Of a DNA stretch of 64,000 bases, positions 47,461 through 57,356 are shown piece by piece. Positions within the stretch are counted from its first letter, which is position 1. Each line of letters begins with the position of its first letter. The translations under genes were made by a program, and so were the position numbers. The DNA is from Micromonospora kangleipakensis (GTDB lineage: Bacteria > Actinomycetota > Actinomycetes > Mycobacteriales > Micromonosporaceae). The notes beneath the pieces were generated by a model. That model searched no databases. It was given only the letters and a program-made list of their open reading frames with translations, and had not been told where the DNA came from. The stretch spans positions 3,782,001 through 3,846,000 of the forward strand of contig NZ_SHLD01000001.1 of the NCBI RefSeq assembly GCF_004217615.1, written 5' to 3'.

Positions 47461-48541
47461 CAAGGTCGTGGTGGTCAGCGGCCCCGGGCGGGTGGAGCTG
47501 GTCGAGCAGGACGCCGCCGAGCTGCGGGACGGCACGTTCCGGGTGGAGACGCTCTACAGCGGCGTCTCCGCCGGCACCGAACTGAGCTACGTCAAGGGCA
47601 CCAACCCCTACCTCAACGTCACCTGGAACGCCGACCTTGGCCTGTTCCAGCCGGGGGAGGCGACCGCCCCGTACCCGGTGGACCGGCTCGGCTACATGCA
47701 GGTCGGCCGGGTGGTGGAGAGCCGTACCCCGGCGATCCGGGTCGGGACCGTCGGCGCGATGACCTACGGGCACCGCACCGGGTACGTCGCCGACCCGGTC
47801 GCCGAACGCTTCGTGCCGCTGCCGGAGGACCTCGACCCGGTGCTCGGCGTCTACGTCGCGCACATGGGTCCGATCTGCGCCAACGGCCTGCTGCACGCCG
47901 CGGCCGACCTGTGCGGCACCGACGTCCGCTCGCTCGGCGACGGCGTGCGCGGCCGCCGGGTCGCGGTCGTCGGCAGCGGCGTCGTCGCGCTGCTCACCGC
48001 GCTGCTCGCCCGGCGGCACGGGGCCGCCTCGGTGGTGGTGCTGGACCCGACCCCGCAGCGGCGGGAGGTGGCCGAGGCGCTGGGCCTGGAGACCCTCGAC
48101 CCGGACGCCGACGACCCGGCGGTGGTGCTGAAGACCCGGTGGAACCACGCCGCCGGCGACCGCGGCGCCGACGTGGTGTTCCAGTGCCGGGGCCAGGCCT
48201 GGGCGCTGCACCTCGCGCTGCGCCTGCTGCGCCCCCAGGGAACGGTCATCGACCTGGCCTTCTACCAGGCCGGCGCGGACGAGGTCCGGTTAGGCGAGGA
48301 GTTCCACCACAACGGCCTCTCGCTGCGCTGCGCCCAGATCGGGCGGGTGCCGCGCGGGCTCGCCCCCATCTGGGACCGGGAGCGGCTCTCCGCGGAGACC
48401 ATCGAGCTGCTCCGGCAGTACGGCGACGTGATCCGCAAGCATCTGGTCTCGGCGGTGGTGCCGTTCGAGGAGGCGCCGGCGCTGCTGACCGACCTGGCCG
48501 AGCGGCGCCGGTCGGAGCTCCAGGTCGTGCTCACGCCCTGA
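47453..48541 (+). CDS. MDR-superfamily dehydrogenase lacking zinc ligands
   Basis: 362 aa. A GroES-like N-terminus (G-V-S-A-G-T-E) and a Rossmann domain with V-A-V-V-G-S-G-V-V-A-L-L mark an alcohol-dehydrogenase-type MDR protein (threonine dehydrogenase/BchC-like). The catalytic-zinc cysteine is replaced by serine, and the four-cysteine structural zinc lobe is absent. It therefore probably acts as a reductase on a carbonyl or sugar intermediate together with the Gfo/Idh protein. The substrate is unknown. Confidence 0.85.
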   Translation: MRDKVVVVSGPGRVELVEQDAAELRDGTFRVETLYSGVSAGTELSYVKGTNPYLNVTWNADLGLFQPGEATAPYPVDRLGYMQVGRVVESRTPAIRVGTVGAMTYGHRTGYVADPVAERFVPLPEDLDPVLGVYVAHMGPICANGLLHAAADLCGTDVRSLGDGVRGRRVAVVGSGVVALLTALLARRHGAASVVVLDPTPQRREVAEALGLETLDPDADDPAVVLKTRWNHAAGDRGADVVFQCRGQAWALHLALRLLRPQGTVIDLAFYQAGADEVRLGEEFHHNGLSLRCAQIGRVPRGLAPIWDRERLSAETIELLRQYGDVIRKHLVSAVVPFEEAPALLTDLAERRRSELQVVLTP

Positions 48542-48606
48542 GCCGGCCGTTCACCGGGTTCGCCGGCGGCCGTCGGCCACCGCCCGGGCGGGATGACCGG
48601 GCCGGC

Positions 48607-48612
48607 TACCGT
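48607..48612 (+). promoter_or_regulatory. -10 box (TACCGT) of leaderless ABC exporter gene
   Basis: TACCGT lies six bases before ATG 48619 and there is no Shine-Dalgarno. Confidence 0.45.
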
Positions 48613-48618
48613 TCTGCC

Positions 48619-50392
48619 ATGACCACGGACGCCGCCCGCCCGCCCGGGCTCGCCGCCCTGCTGCCGTACCTGCGCGCCCACCGCGGCACCCTCGCCGTGG
48701 TGGGCGCGCTGTCGCTGGCCGGCGCCGGGGCCTCCCTCGGGCAGCCCCTGCTCACCCGGGTGGTGCTGGACCGGATGACCGCCGCCCGGCCGATCGCCGG
48801 GCTCGTCGTCGCGCTGGTGGCCCTGGTGGTGGCCGGCGCGGCGGTCGGCGGTCTCCGCGACTACCTGCTGCAACGGACCGCGGAGGGGCTGGTGCTGGGC
48901 ACCCGCCGCCGGCTCGCCGGGCACCTGCTGCGGCTGCCGATCGCCGAGTACGACCGCCGACGCACCGGCGACCTGCTCTCCCGGGTCGGCTCGGACACCA
49001 CCCTGCTGCGGGCGGTGGTCACCTCCGGGCTCTTCGAGACCGTCACCGGGGCCGTGATGGTGCTCGGCGCCGGGACCGCGATGCTGCTGCTCGACCCGCC
49101 GCTGTTCGGGGTGACGCTGGGCGCCGTCGCGGTCGGCATCGGGTTCGCCCTCACCGGTCGGCATCGGGTTCGCCCTCACCGTCGCCCGCCGGGTACGCGG
49201 GCTGGCCCGCCGGGCCCAGGAGCGCGTCGGTGAGATGACCTCCGCCGTCGAGCGGGCCATCTCGGCCGCCCGCACCATCCGGGCCAGCCGGGCCGAGACG
49301 CGGGAGGCGGAGACCGTCGCCGGCAGCGCCGCCGAGGCGTACGCGGCGGGGCTGCGGGTGGCCCGGGTGCAGGCGCTGGTCGGCCCGGCCAGCACGGTCA
49401 CCATCCAGGGCGCCTTCCTGCTGGTGCTGGCCGTCGGCGGGGCCCGGGTGGCCGCCGGGGCGATCAGCGTCGGCGACCTGGTCGCCTTCGTGATGTTCCT
49501 GTTCTTCCTGGTGCTGCCGCTGGGGCAGGCGGTGCACGCGTACACCCAGTTGCAGAGCGGGCTGGGCGCCCTCGCCCGGATCGAGGAGATCCTCGCCGTA
49601 CCGGAGGAGGGGGCCGGCGATCGGCGGGCCCGGCCGGTGGTGGCCCCGGCGGCCGGCGGGCCGGCGGCGATCCGGTTCGACCGGGTCGGGTTCGGCTACC
49701 CGGGCGGGCCGCCGGTGCTGCACGGGGTGAGCTTCACCGTGCCGGCCGGCACCCGGACCGCCCTGGTTGGCCCCTCCGGCGCCGGCAAGTCGACGCTGCT
49801 CGCCCTGGTCGAACGCTTCTACGAGGTCACCGAGGGCGCCCTGTGCCTGGACGGGGTGGACGTGCGCAACCTGCCCCGCGACGCGCTGCGGGCCCGGCTC
49901 GGGTACGTCGAGCAGGAGGCCCCGGTCCTCGCCGGCACGCTGCGGGAGAACCTGCTGATCACCGCGCCGGACGCCCCGGACGACCGGCTCCTGGCCGTCC
50001 TCGACGAGGTCAACCTGGGCCACCTGGCCGAGCGGGCGCCCGAGGGGCTGGGCGTGCAGGTCGGTGAGGGTGGCGTGCTGCTCTCCGGGGGTGAGCGGCA
50101 GCGGCTGGCCATCGCCCGGACACTGCTGGCCGGCCCGCCGGTGCTCCTGCTCGACGAGCCGACCAGCAACCTCGACGCCCGCAACGAGGCGGCGCTGCGC
50201 CGGGCCATCGACGCGGTGGCCGTCCGGCGTACCCTGTTGATCGTGGCGCACCGCCTCTCCACCGTCGTGGACGCGGACCAGATCGTGGTCCTCGACGGGG
50301 GCCGGGTGGTCGCCGTCGGCAGCCACGACGAGCTGACCGTTACCAGCCCCCTCTACCGGGAGCTGGCCACCCACCAGCTCCTCGTCAGCTGA
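48619..50392 (+). pseudogene. ABC exporter half-transporter, split by a 25-bp tandem duplication
   Basis: The first frame (48619-49233) encodes transmembrane helices 1-4 of a type-IV ABC exporter. A second frame (ATG 49235 to 50392, 385 aa) encodes the rest of the membrane domain and the ATPase: Walker A G-P-S-G-A-G-K-S, signature L-S-G-G-E-R-Q-R, Walker B L-L-L-D-E-P, H-loop A-H-R. Between them bases 49131-49155 are repeated exactly at 49156-49180. Removing one copy restores a single 582-aa protein of normal length. TGA (49231-49233) is followed one base later by ATG 49235, so the second part could be translated by reinitiation. Confidence 0.85.
49131..49180 (+). repeat. Perfect 25-bp tandem duplication inside ABC exporter gene
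   Basis: Two identical 25-base units (49131-49155 and 49156-49180), each starting GGTCGGCATC and ending GCCCTCACC. Because 25 is not a multiple of three, the duplication shifts the frame and leads to the stop at 49231. Confidence 0.95.
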
Positions 50393-50489
50393 CCCCGCGG
50401 CAAAGGCCCTGAGCTGGGCGGATGCCGCCAATTCCGGACACCGGCGCGACCTGCCGACCGCCGGGCCGCACAATCGCGTTCGGTTCGCG

Positions 50490-50495
50490 TACCGT
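50490..50495 (+). promoter_or_regulatory. Possible -10 box (TACCGT) of secA2
   Basis: TACCGT lies eight bases before ATG 50504. No Shine-Dalgarno is visible, so the transcript is probably leaderless or nearly so. Confidence 0.4.
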
Positions 50496-50503
50496 TGCCG
50501 CTC

Positions 50504-52798
50504 ATGGGTGTGTCGCAACGGTTGAAGAGCAGGTTCCGGCAGTTCCTCCAGCGGCCGGGAACGACGGTCGAGCTGGCCCCGCTGGCGAAGCTGCTGCCGG
50601 CCATCGAGGCGCGCGAGGAAGAGCTGCAGGCGCTCGACGCCGCCGAGCTGACCGAGGCCGCCGGCGCCGCCAGCGGGTACGAGGAGATCTGCGCGGTCGG
50701 CCGGGAGGCCGCCCGCCGCGGCCTGGACCAGCGGCCGTACGACGTGCAGCTGCTCGGCGCGATGGCGCTGCTCTCCGGCAAGGTCGCCGAGATGGCCACC
50801 GGTGAGGGCAAGACGCTCACCGCCACCATCGCCGCGTACGGGCACGTGCGGATGGGCAACGGCCCGGTCCACGTGCTCACCGTCAACGACTACCTGGCCC
50901 GCCGCGACGCCGAGTGGATGGGCCCGGTCTACACCCTGCTCGGGCTCACCGTCGGCTGGGTCAACGAGGCGTCCACCCCCGAGGAGCGGCGCGCCGCGTA
51001 CGCCTGCGACGTCACCTACGTCTCGGTCAGCGAGGCCGGCTTCGACTACCTGCGCGACCAGCTCGTCACCGACATCGACGACCGGGTCCAGCAGCCGCTG
51101 CGGACCGCCATCGTCGACGAGGCCGACTCGATCCTGATCGACGAGGCCCGGGTGCCGATGGTCCTCGCCGGCGCGGTCTCCGGCGAGCAGGACCCGGTGC
51201 ACGCCGCCGCCGCGCTGGTGCGCGGGCTGCGCAAGGGCCGGCACTACACCGTCGCCGAGGACGGCCGCAGCGTCGCCTTCACCGCCGCCGGCCTGGCCAC
51301 CGTCGAGGCCAAGCTCGGCGGCATCGACCTGTACGACGAGGAGCACGTCGGGCAGCTCTCCGCGGTGAACGTGGCGCTGCACGCGCGGGCCCTGCTGCAC
51401 CGTGACGTCGACTACATCGTCCGGGACGGCTCGGTCGAGCTGATCGACGAGATGCGCGGCCGGGTGGCCCAGCGCCGCCGCTGGCCGGACGGGCTCCAGG
51501 CCGCGGTCGAGGCGAAGGAGGGCCTGGACGCGACCGCCGAGGGCGAGGTGCTCGGCACGATCGCCGTGCAGGCGTTCATCGCGCTCTACCCGAAGGTCTG
51601 CGGGATGACCGCGACCGCGGTGCTCGTCGGCGACCAGCTGCGGGAGTTCTTCGGCCTCGAGGTGGCGGTGATCCCGCCGAACACGCCGTGCGTCCGCGAG
51701 GACGAGTCGGACCGGATCTACGCCACCCGGGCCGAGAAGGAGGAGGCGCTGATCGACGAGATCAAGCGCTGCCACGAGCAGGGCCGGCCGGTGCTGGTCG
51801 GCACCCTGGACGTCAAGGAGTCCGAGGGGCTGGCCGCCGGGCTGCACGCCGCGGGGGTGCCCTGCGTGGTGCTCAACGCCAAGAACGACGACGAGGAGGC
51901 GGCGATCATCGCCGAGGCCGGCGCGTACGGCGCGGTGACCGTCTCCACCCAGATGGCCGGCCGGGGCGTCGACATCCGGCTCGGCGGCAGCGACCAGGTC
52001 GACCGGGAGCGGGTCGCCGAGCTGGGCGGCCTGTACGTGATGGGCAGCGGCCGGCACGACAGCCGCCGGGTCGACGACCAGCTGCGCGGCCGGGCCGGCC
52101 GGCAGGGCGACCCGGGCGGCTCGGTCTTCTTCGTCAGCCTGGAGGACGACCTGGTGGCCCGGCACGCCGGCGACGCCGTCCCGGCCTCGCCGCGGATGAA
52201 CGCCGACGGCCTGGTCACCGATCCGCAGGTGGACTACGCGGTGGAGCACGCCCAGCGGGTCGCCGAGGGCGTCAACCACGAGATCCACCGCAACACCTGG
52301 CGCTACAGCGTGGTGATCGAGCAGCAGCGCAAGGCCCTCGCGGAGCGGCGCGAGCGGCTGCTCACCAGCGACATCGCCGCGCTGATGCTGCTGGAGCGGG
52401 TGCCGGAGAAGGCCGGTGAGATGGACGAGGACCTGCTCGCCGACGCGGCCCGGTCGATCGCCCTCTACCACCTGGACCGGCTCTGGGCCGACCACCTGGC
52501 CGAGCTCTCCGAGGTCCGGGAGGGCGTGCACCTCCGCGCGCTGGGCCGGCTCGACCCGCTCGACGAGTTCCACCGCAGCGCCGTGCCGGCGTTCAACGCG
52601 CTGATCCCGGAGATCGAGACGCGGACCATCGCCACCTTCGAGGAGACCGAGTTCGACGAGGGCTGGGAGCCGGACGCCTCGAAGCTGGTCCGGCCGAGCG
52701 CCACCTGGACGTACCTGGTGCACGACAACCCGTTCGGCTCCGAGCTGGACCGGTTGATCGCCTCCGTGGGGCGGCGGCTCATCTCCGGTTCCCGCTGA
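50504..52798 (+). CDS. secA2: Accessory Sec translocase ATPase SecA2
   Basis: 764 aa, shorter than housekeeping SecA and close to actinobacterial SecA2. Walker A is M-A-T-G-E-G-K-T-L and Walker B V-D-E-A-D-S-I-L-I-D-E-A-R. The second helicase domain contains T-Q-M-A-G-R-G-V-D-I and the L-R-G-R-A-G-R-Q-G-D-P-G motif. It has no C-terminal zinc-binding tail. It powers export of a subset of proteins through SecYEG. It is monocistronic, ended by a strong hairpin at 52807-52848. Confidence 0.93.
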   Translation: MGVSQRLKSRFRQFLQRPGTTVELAPLAKLLPAIEAREEELQALDAAELTEAAGAASGYEEICAVGREAARRGLDQRPYDVQLLGAMALLSGKVAEMATGEGKTLTATIAAYGHVRMGNGPVHVLTVNDYLARRDAEWMGPVYTLLGLTVGWVNEASTPEERRAAYACDVTYVSVSEAGFDYLRDQLVTDIDDRVQQPLRTAIVDEADSILIDEARVPMVLAGAVSGEQDPVHAAAALVRGLRKGRHYTVAEDGRSVAFTAAGLATVEAKLGGIDLYDEEHVGQLSAVNVALHARALLHRDVDYIVRDGSVELIDEMRGRVAQRRRWPDGLQAAVEAKEGLDATAEGEVLGTIAVQAFIALYPKVCGMTATAVLVGDQLREFFGLEVAVIPPNTPCVREDESDRIYATRAEKEEALIDEIKRCHEQGRPVLVGTLDVKESEGLAAGLHAAGVPCVVLNAKNDDEEAAIIAEAGAYGAVTVSTQMAGRGVDIRLGGSDQVDRERVAELGGLYVMGSGRHDSRRVDDQLRGRAGRQGDPGGSVFFVSLEDDLVARHAGDAVPASPRMNADGLVTDPQVDYAVEHAQRVAEGVNHEIHRNTWRYSVVIEQQRKALAERRERLLTSDIAALMLLERVPEKAGEMDEDLLADAARSIALYHLDRLWADHLAELSEVREGVHLRALGRLDPLDEFHRSAVPAFNALIPEIETRTIATFEETEFDEGWEPDASKLVRPSATWTYLVHDNPFGSELDRLIASVGRRLISGSR

Positions 52799-54394: not shown

Positions 54395-55154
54395 ATGCGC
54401 GCGGACCGTGACTTCGATGACCTGATCGCCGAGGGCGCCGGGGTGCCGGTCGACGGCTGGGACTTCTCCTGGCTGGCCGGGCGGGCCACCGAGGAGCGCC
54501 CCCCGTGGCGCTACGCCCGGCTGGTCGGCGCCCGGATGGCCACCGTCGCCGCCGCGCTCGACATCGACACCGGCGGGGGAGAGGTGCTCGCCGAGACGCC
54601 CACGCCGCCGCCGCTGCTGGTCGCCACCGAGGCCTGGCCGCCGAACGTCGAGGTCGCCCGCCATACAGTGCGCCGGGTCGGCGCCACCGTGGTGCGGGTG
54701 GCCGGGACGCCCCCACTGCCGTTCCGGGACGGCGCGTTCGACCTGGTCACCAGCCGACCCGGTGGAGACCTGGTGGTACGAGATCGCCCGGGTGCTCCGC
54801 CCCGGTGGGAGCTATCTGTCCCAGCAGATCGGGGCGGGCACGGTCCGCGAGCTGAGCGAGGCGATCCTCGGCCCGCTCCCACCGCCGGCCAGCCGGCATC
54901 CGGAGCAGGCGGTCGCCGCCGCCCGGGCCGCCGGCCTGGAGGTCGTCGAACTGCGTACGGCCACCCTGCGGACGGTCTTCCACGACATCGCCGCCGTGGT
55001 GTACTTCCTGCGCAAGGTGATCTGGACCGTGCCCGGCTTCACCGTCGACCGCTACCGCGACGAGCTGCGCCGCCTGCACGACCGCATCCGCGCCGAGGGC
55101 CCCTTCGTCGCCCACGCCCAACGCTTCCTCATCGAAGCCCGCCACCGTTCCTAA
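54395..55154 (+). pseudogene. Class I SAM methyltransferase, broken by a 2-base deletion
   Basis: Frame 1 (from ATG 54395) runs through the SAM domain up to F-D-L-V-T-S-R, then turns into Arg/Pro-rich nonsense. Frame 3 resumes the family sequence at V-E-T-W-W-Y-E-I-A-R-V-L-R-P-G-G and continues to TAA 55154. Inserting two bases (CC) near 54756-54757 gives S-R-H-P-V-E-T-W-W and joins the halves into one ~253-aa protein. The motif S-R-H-P is what related enzymes have (from memory). An IS607-type element abuts the stop codon. Confidence 0.75.
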
Positions 55155-56787
55155 AGACTGAGCGGGAGTGAGTTCTGTTGCCAGAACCCGTGCTCGGCCG
55201 AACGCCCCGAACGGTGTTGGGCGTTCTGGTCCCCCGCGTTCTCACCGCATCCGGCGCCGACCGATCGTGTCCGTGGTCCGGGAATGCGGGGGCGGGTTTC
55301 CTCGCGCCGTGTGGTGCCCGGTCCGGCCTGGGCGGTCCGATGCCCGGCACGATCACTCTGGTCGTGCGGAGGCGGTGCCGTCCGTCGCCGGATCGGGTGC
55401 CCCCCCAGGGCACGCCGTCCGATCGCCACCGCTGCCGCGTGATGGCGAGTGGTCTTGCGATTCTTGCTGGTGAAGGGCTTCTGCCAGTGCTGCGCGCCCC
55501 ACTTGCTCGTGTAGGCCGGGTCCACGACGACGATGGTGATGCCGAGTTCGGTCGCCATACTGACGAGCCGGGCGCGTAGGTTGCTCACGGGCATGCCGGA
55601 GATCAGCTTGCGGAACCGCTTGCGGCGGCCGTGCTTCTCGCGGGTCTTCTCCGCTGCGAAGTCGAGGTCTTCGACCGCGATCGACAGGTTGTGCCGCTTG
55701 GCGAAGTGCAGCAGCCGGATGAGCGCATGCCGGACCTGGGCATCACGGTGCTGCGCGGTGCCGGACAGGTCGTAGCCGTAGGTGAGCGGGGCGCCGAGCG
55801 GGTTGCCGTGCTCATCCAGACGCCAGGCGGCCAGGTGGTCGGCGTTGGTGTCCACGCCGATCAGGCCGCCGACACGGGCGGCGTTCAGGGGCGCGGTCTT
55901 GACCGGCGGGATCGTCCACGAAGCGGTCAGGTACCAGCGGCCCTTGGCGACGTCTTCGTGGATGCGGTAGGCCACCGCCCGGTTCGCGGTGACACGGTCG
56001 CGCCACTGCTCGCCCCGATGCGGGAAAGACACCTTCACGGCGAGCACGTATCGGCCGTGCCGTGCGTTGGCCAGGTGTGCCAGCGGCGCGGGCAGTTTGA
56101 GGGAGACTTCGCCGTCGGGGGTGAGCGGATCGTCTCGTTTCCGAACCGCTTCCCGGACTCTCCGTCGGCTTGGAGGAACCGCCGCTCGGCTTCCCACCTG
56201 CGGCGCCACTGTGGCTCAGTGAGCTGGGCGTCCTCCAGGTTGTTGCGGGCATTCAGCAGCCGCTTGCCGCCGCGTACCACGCGTACGCGGCCCTGTTCCC
56301 GGTCGGCCCGCTCGGCCTCCAGCCGGCACTGGAGCAGGTGCAGGCGGCGCGTCTTGGCGAACCACTCCTGCCGGGTGCGGTAGCCGCCCGGCGCCCGCTT
56401 GCTGCCCTTCTCGCCCACCGGCAGCGACAGGCGGTGCCCGATCGTCGCGATACCGGCCTCAAGAAACTGGATGTGCGCGAGCTGGGCGCGTCGAGACAGC
56501 GCCCACTGATCGTGCGAAGCTTTCGAGATCGACCCGGCCCACCGCGAGGAAGAATCCTCGGTCAGAGCACGCTTCCGATCCGCCCACGCGTCGGTGTCGT
56601 GATCCAGACCGGCAGCGCAACGCGCCTTGAGATCCCGCCCCGCCAGAACACCGAGATGCTCACCTACGGCGCGGAGAACTTTCTCATCCGCAGGCGTGAG
56701 GCCCTTGAGCCGGTCCCGGATCGCCACTCCCGAGGGGCCGAGGCCGACGAACGGCGGGTCGATCGGCCGTAGCTTGGAATCAGCCAT
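55151..56787 (-). pseudogene. tnpB: TnpB (RuvC-type RNA-guided nuclease of IS607), frameshifted
   Basis: The N-terminal half (56787 to ~56125) and C-terminal half (~56125 to 55151) are in different frames. Adding one base near 56121-56126 restores T-I-R-V-T-P-D-G-E-V-S and a protein of ~545 aa. RuvC Asp is in I-G-V-D-T-N-A-D-H-L and RuvC Glu in I-A-V-E-D-L-D-F. The zinc-ribbon cysteines expected after V-D-P-A-Y-T-S are missing (K-W-G-A-Q-H-W), and the RuvC-III region reads T-R-H-H-A-A-A with no Asp. It belongs to the 'TnpB-related' branch seen in actinomycetes. Confidence 0.8.
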
Positions 56788-57356
56788 GCTCGGCGGCCTC
56801 CAGGGCCTTCTGCGCACGGTTGCGGGCCGAACGGCGCCCGTAAAGACCGGCGCAGAACGATGTCAGCACCTCTACCATGTCGCGCACCAGGTCGCCTTCG
56901 ACCTCGCCGTCATCCAGCACCACCAGACGGCGCCCGGCGGCGGACAGGGCAGCCTCAACCAGCTCGACGTTCATTCGCCCGAGCCGGTCTTTGTGCTCCA
57001 CCACGATCGTGGTCACGCCCGCATCGGCCAGCAGCCGCTTCACCTTCGACCGGGCACCGTTCATGCCCGAGCCAACCTCGGACTCCACCCGCACCACCCG
57101 ATGCCCAGCGGAAGCGGCCCATCGGGTCAGTCGGGCGACCTGCCCCTCAAGACCATCTTTCTGATCGTGGGACGAGACCCTCGCATACAGGCCCAGGCCG
57201 TCGACCGCCTCGGGTGTGGTGTTGGCTTCGACGTTCACCAAGATCATGCACGGTCCGACCCGCTGAGCCGGTACCGGCAACGTCCCATCACGGAACCAGC
57301 GATACGCGGTCTGCGGATGCACGCCCTACGCCCCTCGCCCATTCCGTCAGATTCAC
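56780..57356 (-). pseudogene. tnpA: IS607-family serine recombinase TnpA, frameshifted at its N-terminus
   Basis: From GTG 57356 the protein begins M-N-L-T-E-W-A-R-G-V, then a run of three C (57324-57326, plus strand) shifts the frame. With one base fewer it reads G-V-H-P-Q-T-A-Y-R-W-F, the MerR-like HTH of IS607 TnpA. From GTG 57322 the rest is intact: the serine-recombinase nucleophile is in Y-A-R-V-S-S, followed by H-K-D-R-L-G-R and a basic tail. The internal GTG would give a 180-aa protein lacking the first ~11 residues of the HTH. Confidence 0.75.

Follow-up and report, generated by a model that had tools for sequence, protein, structure and literature searches.

An exact 25-base tandem duplication breaks the reading frame of an ABC exporter gene in Micromonospora kangleipakensis

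Results

Genes and features of the exporter locus

The window, by which we mean the whole stretch of 64,000 nucleotides analysed here (positions 3,782,001 to 3,846,000 of contig NZ_SHLD01000001.1 in assembly GCF_004217615.1), is derived from M. kangleipakensis. It carries an ABC exporter gene that is read as two open frames, the secA2 gene next to it, and an IS607-like element farther along, as follows.

48619..49233, + strand: first of the two open frames, with 204 codons for the N-terminal part of the exporter (open reading frames; Pfam ABC_membrane)
49130..49154, + strand: first copy of the 25-base unit (repeat search, Tandem Repeats Finder)
49155..49179, + strand: second, identical copy of the 25-base unit, the match extending two bases farther to 49181 (repeat search, Tandem Repeats Finder)
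49218..49222, + strand: AGGAG, 12 bases before the ATG at 49235, which could serve as a ribosome site but has poor spacing and equally belongs to normal coding sequence
49231..49233, + strand: TGA closing the shifted frame (sequence)
49235..50392, + strand: second open frame, 385 codons, C-terminal part of the exporter (open reading frames; Pfam ABC_tran and ABC_membrane)
50504..52798, + strand: secA2, accessory Sec translocase, a neighbour outside the event in which no break was seen (NCBIfam TIGR04221)
55151-57322, - strand: IS607-like element (resolvase and TnpB-like product)
55151-56209, - strand: TnpB-like part 2 (weak Cas12f1-like_TNB match, 0.0052)
56035-56817, - strand: TnpB-like part 1 (no Pfam match)
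56780-57322, - strand: serine resolvase of the IS607-like element (Pfam Resolvase, 6.6e-20)

The first frame starts with the ATG at 48619 and runs in the normal frame through the first copy of the 25-base unit, after which it is shifted and ends at the TGA; its product comprises helices 1-3, the first part of helix 4, and then about 25 out-of-frame residues. The second frame encodes the last part of helix 4, the coupling helix, the last two long helices, and a complete nucleotide-binding domain. When searched apart, the two products matched neighbouring portions of the same families of exporters. The first piece matched ABC_membrane (PF00664) with its residues 27-178 (5.1e-19; 69.4 bits against a cut-off of 28; profile positions 3-159 of 274), and the second piece matched both the same profile at positions 180-273 of 274 (1.5e-11; 45 bits, cut-off 28) and ABC_tran (PF00005) at positions 1-137 of 137 (2.3e-31; 109.6 bits, cut-off 25). 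A previous examination of the DNA letters (hereafter the sequence-only reading) had placed a frame shift within the transmembrane domain and had given 582 aa as the normal length of the protein; the two frames with their adjoining ABC_membrane matches bear out the former, and the intact proteins of close relatives (P0002, P0004, and G032), all of 582 aa, the latter.

The two domains of the half-transporter do not lie on one polypeptide here, since the TGA at 49231-49233 parts the frames. When the pieces were scored apart against NCBIfam TIGR02204 (MsbA_rel), they reached 65.6 and 310 bits, below the curated cut-off of 780.4. The sequences GPSGAGKST, LLSGGERQR, and VLLLDEPTS, which we take to be the motifs of the nucleotide-binding domain, were unbroken in the translation of the second frame. 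At E <= 1e-20, the second piece had 20 additional matches elsewhere in the source genome, and the one with the highest score was 39% identical. A promoter and terminator scan of 48300-50600 returned no site.

As for the neighbouring features, TIGR04221 recognized secA2 on 50510-52798 with 1199.4 bits against a cut-off of 725, and the DNA match of many relatives extended 17 bases into it, to query base 1961 (window 50520). In the element at 55151-57322, presumably a member of the IS607 family, the parts of the TnpB-like product lie in two frames, and here, some 6 kb away from the exporter, a frame again appears to be broken.

Extent and rarity of the duplicated unit

Tandem Repeats Finder delimited the array to 49130-49181, with a period of 25, 2.1 copies, 100% matches, and no indels. 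The exact and abutting 25-bp duplication that the sequence-only reading had given as 49131-49180 is this same array in a neighbouring register. Among exact tandem pairs of period 16-300, the exporter pair was the only one in 464 kb of the source genome (the 64-kb window plus 20 evenly spaced 20-kb stretches), and simulated order-3 Markov sequence of five times 464 kb contained no exact tandem pair of period >13; a chance repeat was ruled out on these two grounds. In 863 kb from 115 other loci, mostly of actinomycetes and some of Firmicutes, eight exact tandem pairs of period 16-300 were found, which is denser than in the source-genome sample and indicates that DNA of this kind does contain short tandem duplications. 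The duplicated stretch is bordered by CCGTCGC, a 7-base direct repeat at 49124-49130 and 49179-49185, and this repeat probably did not set the length of the unit, as its spacing is unfit for 25 bases.

The second copy could have been put in by the assembler or taken over from a minority of the reads, so that the duplication would be an assembly or consensus artefact. Two copies were present in no other record examined, and the frame break in the IS607-like element could likewise indicate consensus errors. The source genome, however, is a single contig of 7,267,142 bases that is rated 100% complete, and the 464-kb sample, with no other exact pair of period 16-300, gave no indication that such errors are generally over-represented. 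Furthermore, the usual error of long reads concerns the length of homopolymers, which an exact, in-tandem copy of 25 bases does not resemble. We thus regard an artefact as rather unlikely.

The duplication site in relatives

Of the 109 relative loci L004-L112, the 49 of Micromonospora were aligned at the site, some of which represent one genome present in two collections. In the alignment, every one of these 49 loci was 25 net bases shorter at the duplication site; the gaps summed to 25 in 48 of them, and in the other one (L039) a gap of 30 bases was offset by a counter-gap of 5. An open frame of at least 535 aa ran through the site in all 49. None of them had a repeat there, and a predisposition of the site to repeats was hence ruled out among these loci. 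The sequence-only reading had taken the duplication to be recent and had proposed a comparison of sister strains; with all 49 loci single-copy at the site and the two copies in the window identical, recency was well supported.

A search for the junction pattern with at most two mismatches yielded three of 160 genus genomes, namely, the source genome, G016, and G042. The matches in G016 and G042, both with two mismatches, were dismissed because no exporter match lay nearby. Inside the exporter gene, the pattern was therefore found in none of the 159 other genus genomes, although a strongly diverged junction would escape it.

The nearest full-length protein among the best 120 of 7,998 was that of Micromonospora sp. 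IBHARD004 (P0002), which matched the first piece at 178 of 179 residues and shared 98% identity with the second. This strain was not among the best 80 loci of the contig scan. An excerpt of PMC12821332 reports nanopore sequencing for it and names M. kangleipakensis DSM 45612, at a dDDH of 66.8%, as the nearest strain. Among the genus genomes, the nearest was G032 (93% identical in DNA), and none of the others in the 160-genome set exceeded 96% identity to the second piece.

The residue following FALT (or its equivalent) was compared in 116 aligned orthologues, i.e., the best 120 of 7,998 minus P0001, P0070, P0107, and P0109, which were the window's own protein, too short, or devoid of the anchor motif. 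Phenylalanine was present in 59, valine in 56, and glycine in IBHARD004 alone. This lone glycine, residue 180 of P0002, lies directly beside the position of the duplication junction in the window, and the junction of the window likewise encodes glycine after FALT.

Distribution of the gene and its other interruptions

An orthologous N part at >= 70% identity was found in 78 of the 160 genus genomes, and seven further genomes matched it at only 43-48%, as paralogues. The N and C parts gave an equal open-frame length in 70 of the 78 orthologues, and two (G028 and G123) were cut by contig ends. The remaining six looked interrupted: those of the source genome, G004, G013, G014, G084, and G142. In the latter five (loci L138, L136, L137, L005, and L014, respectively), the breaks fell at different codons and appeared as small frame changes of net 1 to 7 bases relative to whichever of ten intact references was nearest. 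Repeated loss of the gene through duplications like the present one was considered, but an inserted tandem copy longer than 2 bases was seen in none of the five. Since the assemblies of G013, G084, G004, and G014 are in at least 20 contigs, their interruptions may be sequencing errors; the five as a whole may thus represent either repeated loss or errors of draft sequence. Judging from its patchy presence in 78 of 160 genomes and the interruption of 6 of the 78, the exporter gene appears to be dispensable.

In simple-sequence contingency loci, many copies of a short unit are present and the frame is set by the repeat number. A frame change by copy number is similarly conceivable for the exporter duplication, and the sequence-only reading had suggested a contingency switch, that is, a phase-variable locus at which the exporter is toggled in the population as the 25-base copy is gained and lost. 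Exact tandem copies can indeed be lost: spontaneous in-ORF duplications in pneumococcal cap3A, cap8E, and tts (Waite et al., 2001, 2003) are described in passages of PMC4022640, PMC4243769, and PMC2995930, where those of capsule genes are reported to be reversible and a cause of capsule loss, and a passage of PMC3519483 reports that, in M. smegmatis, direct repeats of 38 bp separated by about 1 kb raised precise deletion about 1,000-fold over the background. For inserts of 9 bp or less, however, reversion at no more than about 1e-5 is expected in a passage of PMC4022640. Moreover, in contrast to the simple-sequence loci, only two 25-base copies exist here, and no repeat tract was seen at the site in the other strains and species compared: all 49 Micromonospora loci were single-copy, the junction (<= 2 mismatches) occurred in the exporter gene of 0 of 159 other genus genomes, one frame ran throughout in 70 of 78 orthologues, and the five other interrupted ones lacked any inserted tandem copy exceeding 2 bases. 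As a contingency locus should vary in other strains, and neither a repeat nor a change of copy number was found at the site in the relatives compared, we abandoned the term switch and retained the statement that the duplication could revert. A phase-variable exporter is therefore highly improbable in our estimation.

The break in helix 4 and the stop-restart arrangement

A structural model of the intact IBHARD004 protein was built with AlphaFold2 from 29 sequences, giving five models with mean pLDDT values of 60.2-80.7. The best of them (mean pLDDT 80.7, pTM 0.61) had a continuous helix at residues 160-207 and a short helix at 209-214, the latter of which we take to be the coupling helix. A Foldseek search with this model found BmrA (E 6.6e-36), human ABCB10, and M. 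smegmatis MsRv1273c/72c as the nearest structures. In the window, the native sequence ends after residue 179 and picks up at 198, so that about 18 residues (180-197) are absent from both products; in light of the helix at 160-207 in the model, helix 4 is cut mid-way. As in type IV ABC exporters such as BmrA, ABCB10, and MsRv1273c/72c, each open frame corresponds to one part of the fold, but whereas these exporters and the intact orthologues consist of a single chain, the chain in the source genome is broken within helix 4.

The sequence-only reading had noted that two polypeptides might still be made, and a functional split transporter would follow if translation stopped at the TGA, restarted at the ATG, and the pieces assembled. 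The ATG at 49235 does begin one base after the TGA at 49231-49233, with AGGAG 12 bases upstream, and both pieces are otherwise intact, the second with a complete ATPase domain. However, the layout does not seem to have been shaped for a restart. The ATG codes for an internal methionine in all 49 relatives, TGA occupies the stop position in 3 of the 49, and the position of AGGAG reads AGGAG in 18 and AGGAA in 31; the closeness of stop and ATG was accordingly dismissed as an evolved restart. As the ATG is a conserved internal methionine, the stop-restart pair looks most simply coincidental. In addition, the missing residues of helix 4 are replaced by an out-of-frame tail rich in proline and arginine, and the breaks of the five other interrupted orthologues lie at other codons. 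The juxtaposition of stop and start thus stood, while the case for two polypeptides was graded weak; from these sequence comparisons a working two-piece transporter seems unlikely, and indeed very much so.

Selection on the two pieces

The dN/dS value against the sister G032 was 0.24 for both pieces. Branch counts of nonsynonymous to synonymous changes, obtained with five outgroups of which one (L005) is itself frameshifted, were 2:5 for the window and 4:9 for the sister in the first piece (9 ambiguous), and 8:12 and 2:10 in the second (16 ambiguous), numbers that are too small to show relaxation. Both pieces were otherwise well kept, with no further stop and with intact motifs. Such a lack of visible long-term decay would fit a very recent event, but would fit a functional product or an artefact as well. 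Taken together with the identity of the two copies, these values indicate that the event is recent, and no more.

Discussion

The window contains a 25-base tandem duplication that is absent from the compared relatives, and the frame that it disrupts is intact in their orthologues, as would be the case for a pseudogene. This is an event of a known kind, namely, a short tandem duplication breaking a gene. It resembles the duplications described for pneumococcal cap3A, cap8E, and tts in that a frame-breaking, in-ORF tandem duplication that is lacking in relatives halts the product; those duplications are described as reversible, and phase variation is reported for the capsule genes in the passages cited above, whereas here there is one genome record of a Micromonospora exporter. 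A literature search joining phase variation, tandem duplication, ABC transporter, and contingency found nothing.

Considering all these observations, we think it probable that the locus is a recent loss-of-function allele of an ABC exporter half-transporter, caused by a single 25-base duplication inside its coding sequence. The duplication would most likely have originated by replication slippage or by template switching at very short similarity, given that, past the second copy, agreement with the start of the unit lasts for two bases only. The resulting shift of frame within transmembrane helix 4 would leave a truncated membrane piece as the first product and, as the second, at most a fragment comprising the ATPase domain and two of the six long helices, and the exporter function would presumably be lost. 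The extra copy could in principle collapse again at low frequency, and reversion by slippage is plausible.

The glycine of IBHARD004 bears on whether such a reversal might have happened in nature. An ordinary point change would explain it simply, and it could also be left behind if one copy were lost with slight imprecision. That the duplication predates the strain and comes and goes in the species group, IBHARD004 being a scarred revertant and the exporter reversibly silenced, is a reading to which we give little credence, the glycine belonging to one strain that is known here from its protein alone and from nanopore data. If it were true, however, the pair would exemplify the natural reversal of a short duplication between closely related strains, and reversible silencing by short duplications in actinomycetes would become directly testable by sequencing more strains. 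On the reading as a recent loss-of-function allele, which we prefer, the locus is a clean example of how a short tandem duplication disrupts an exporter that Micromonospora can apparently do without.
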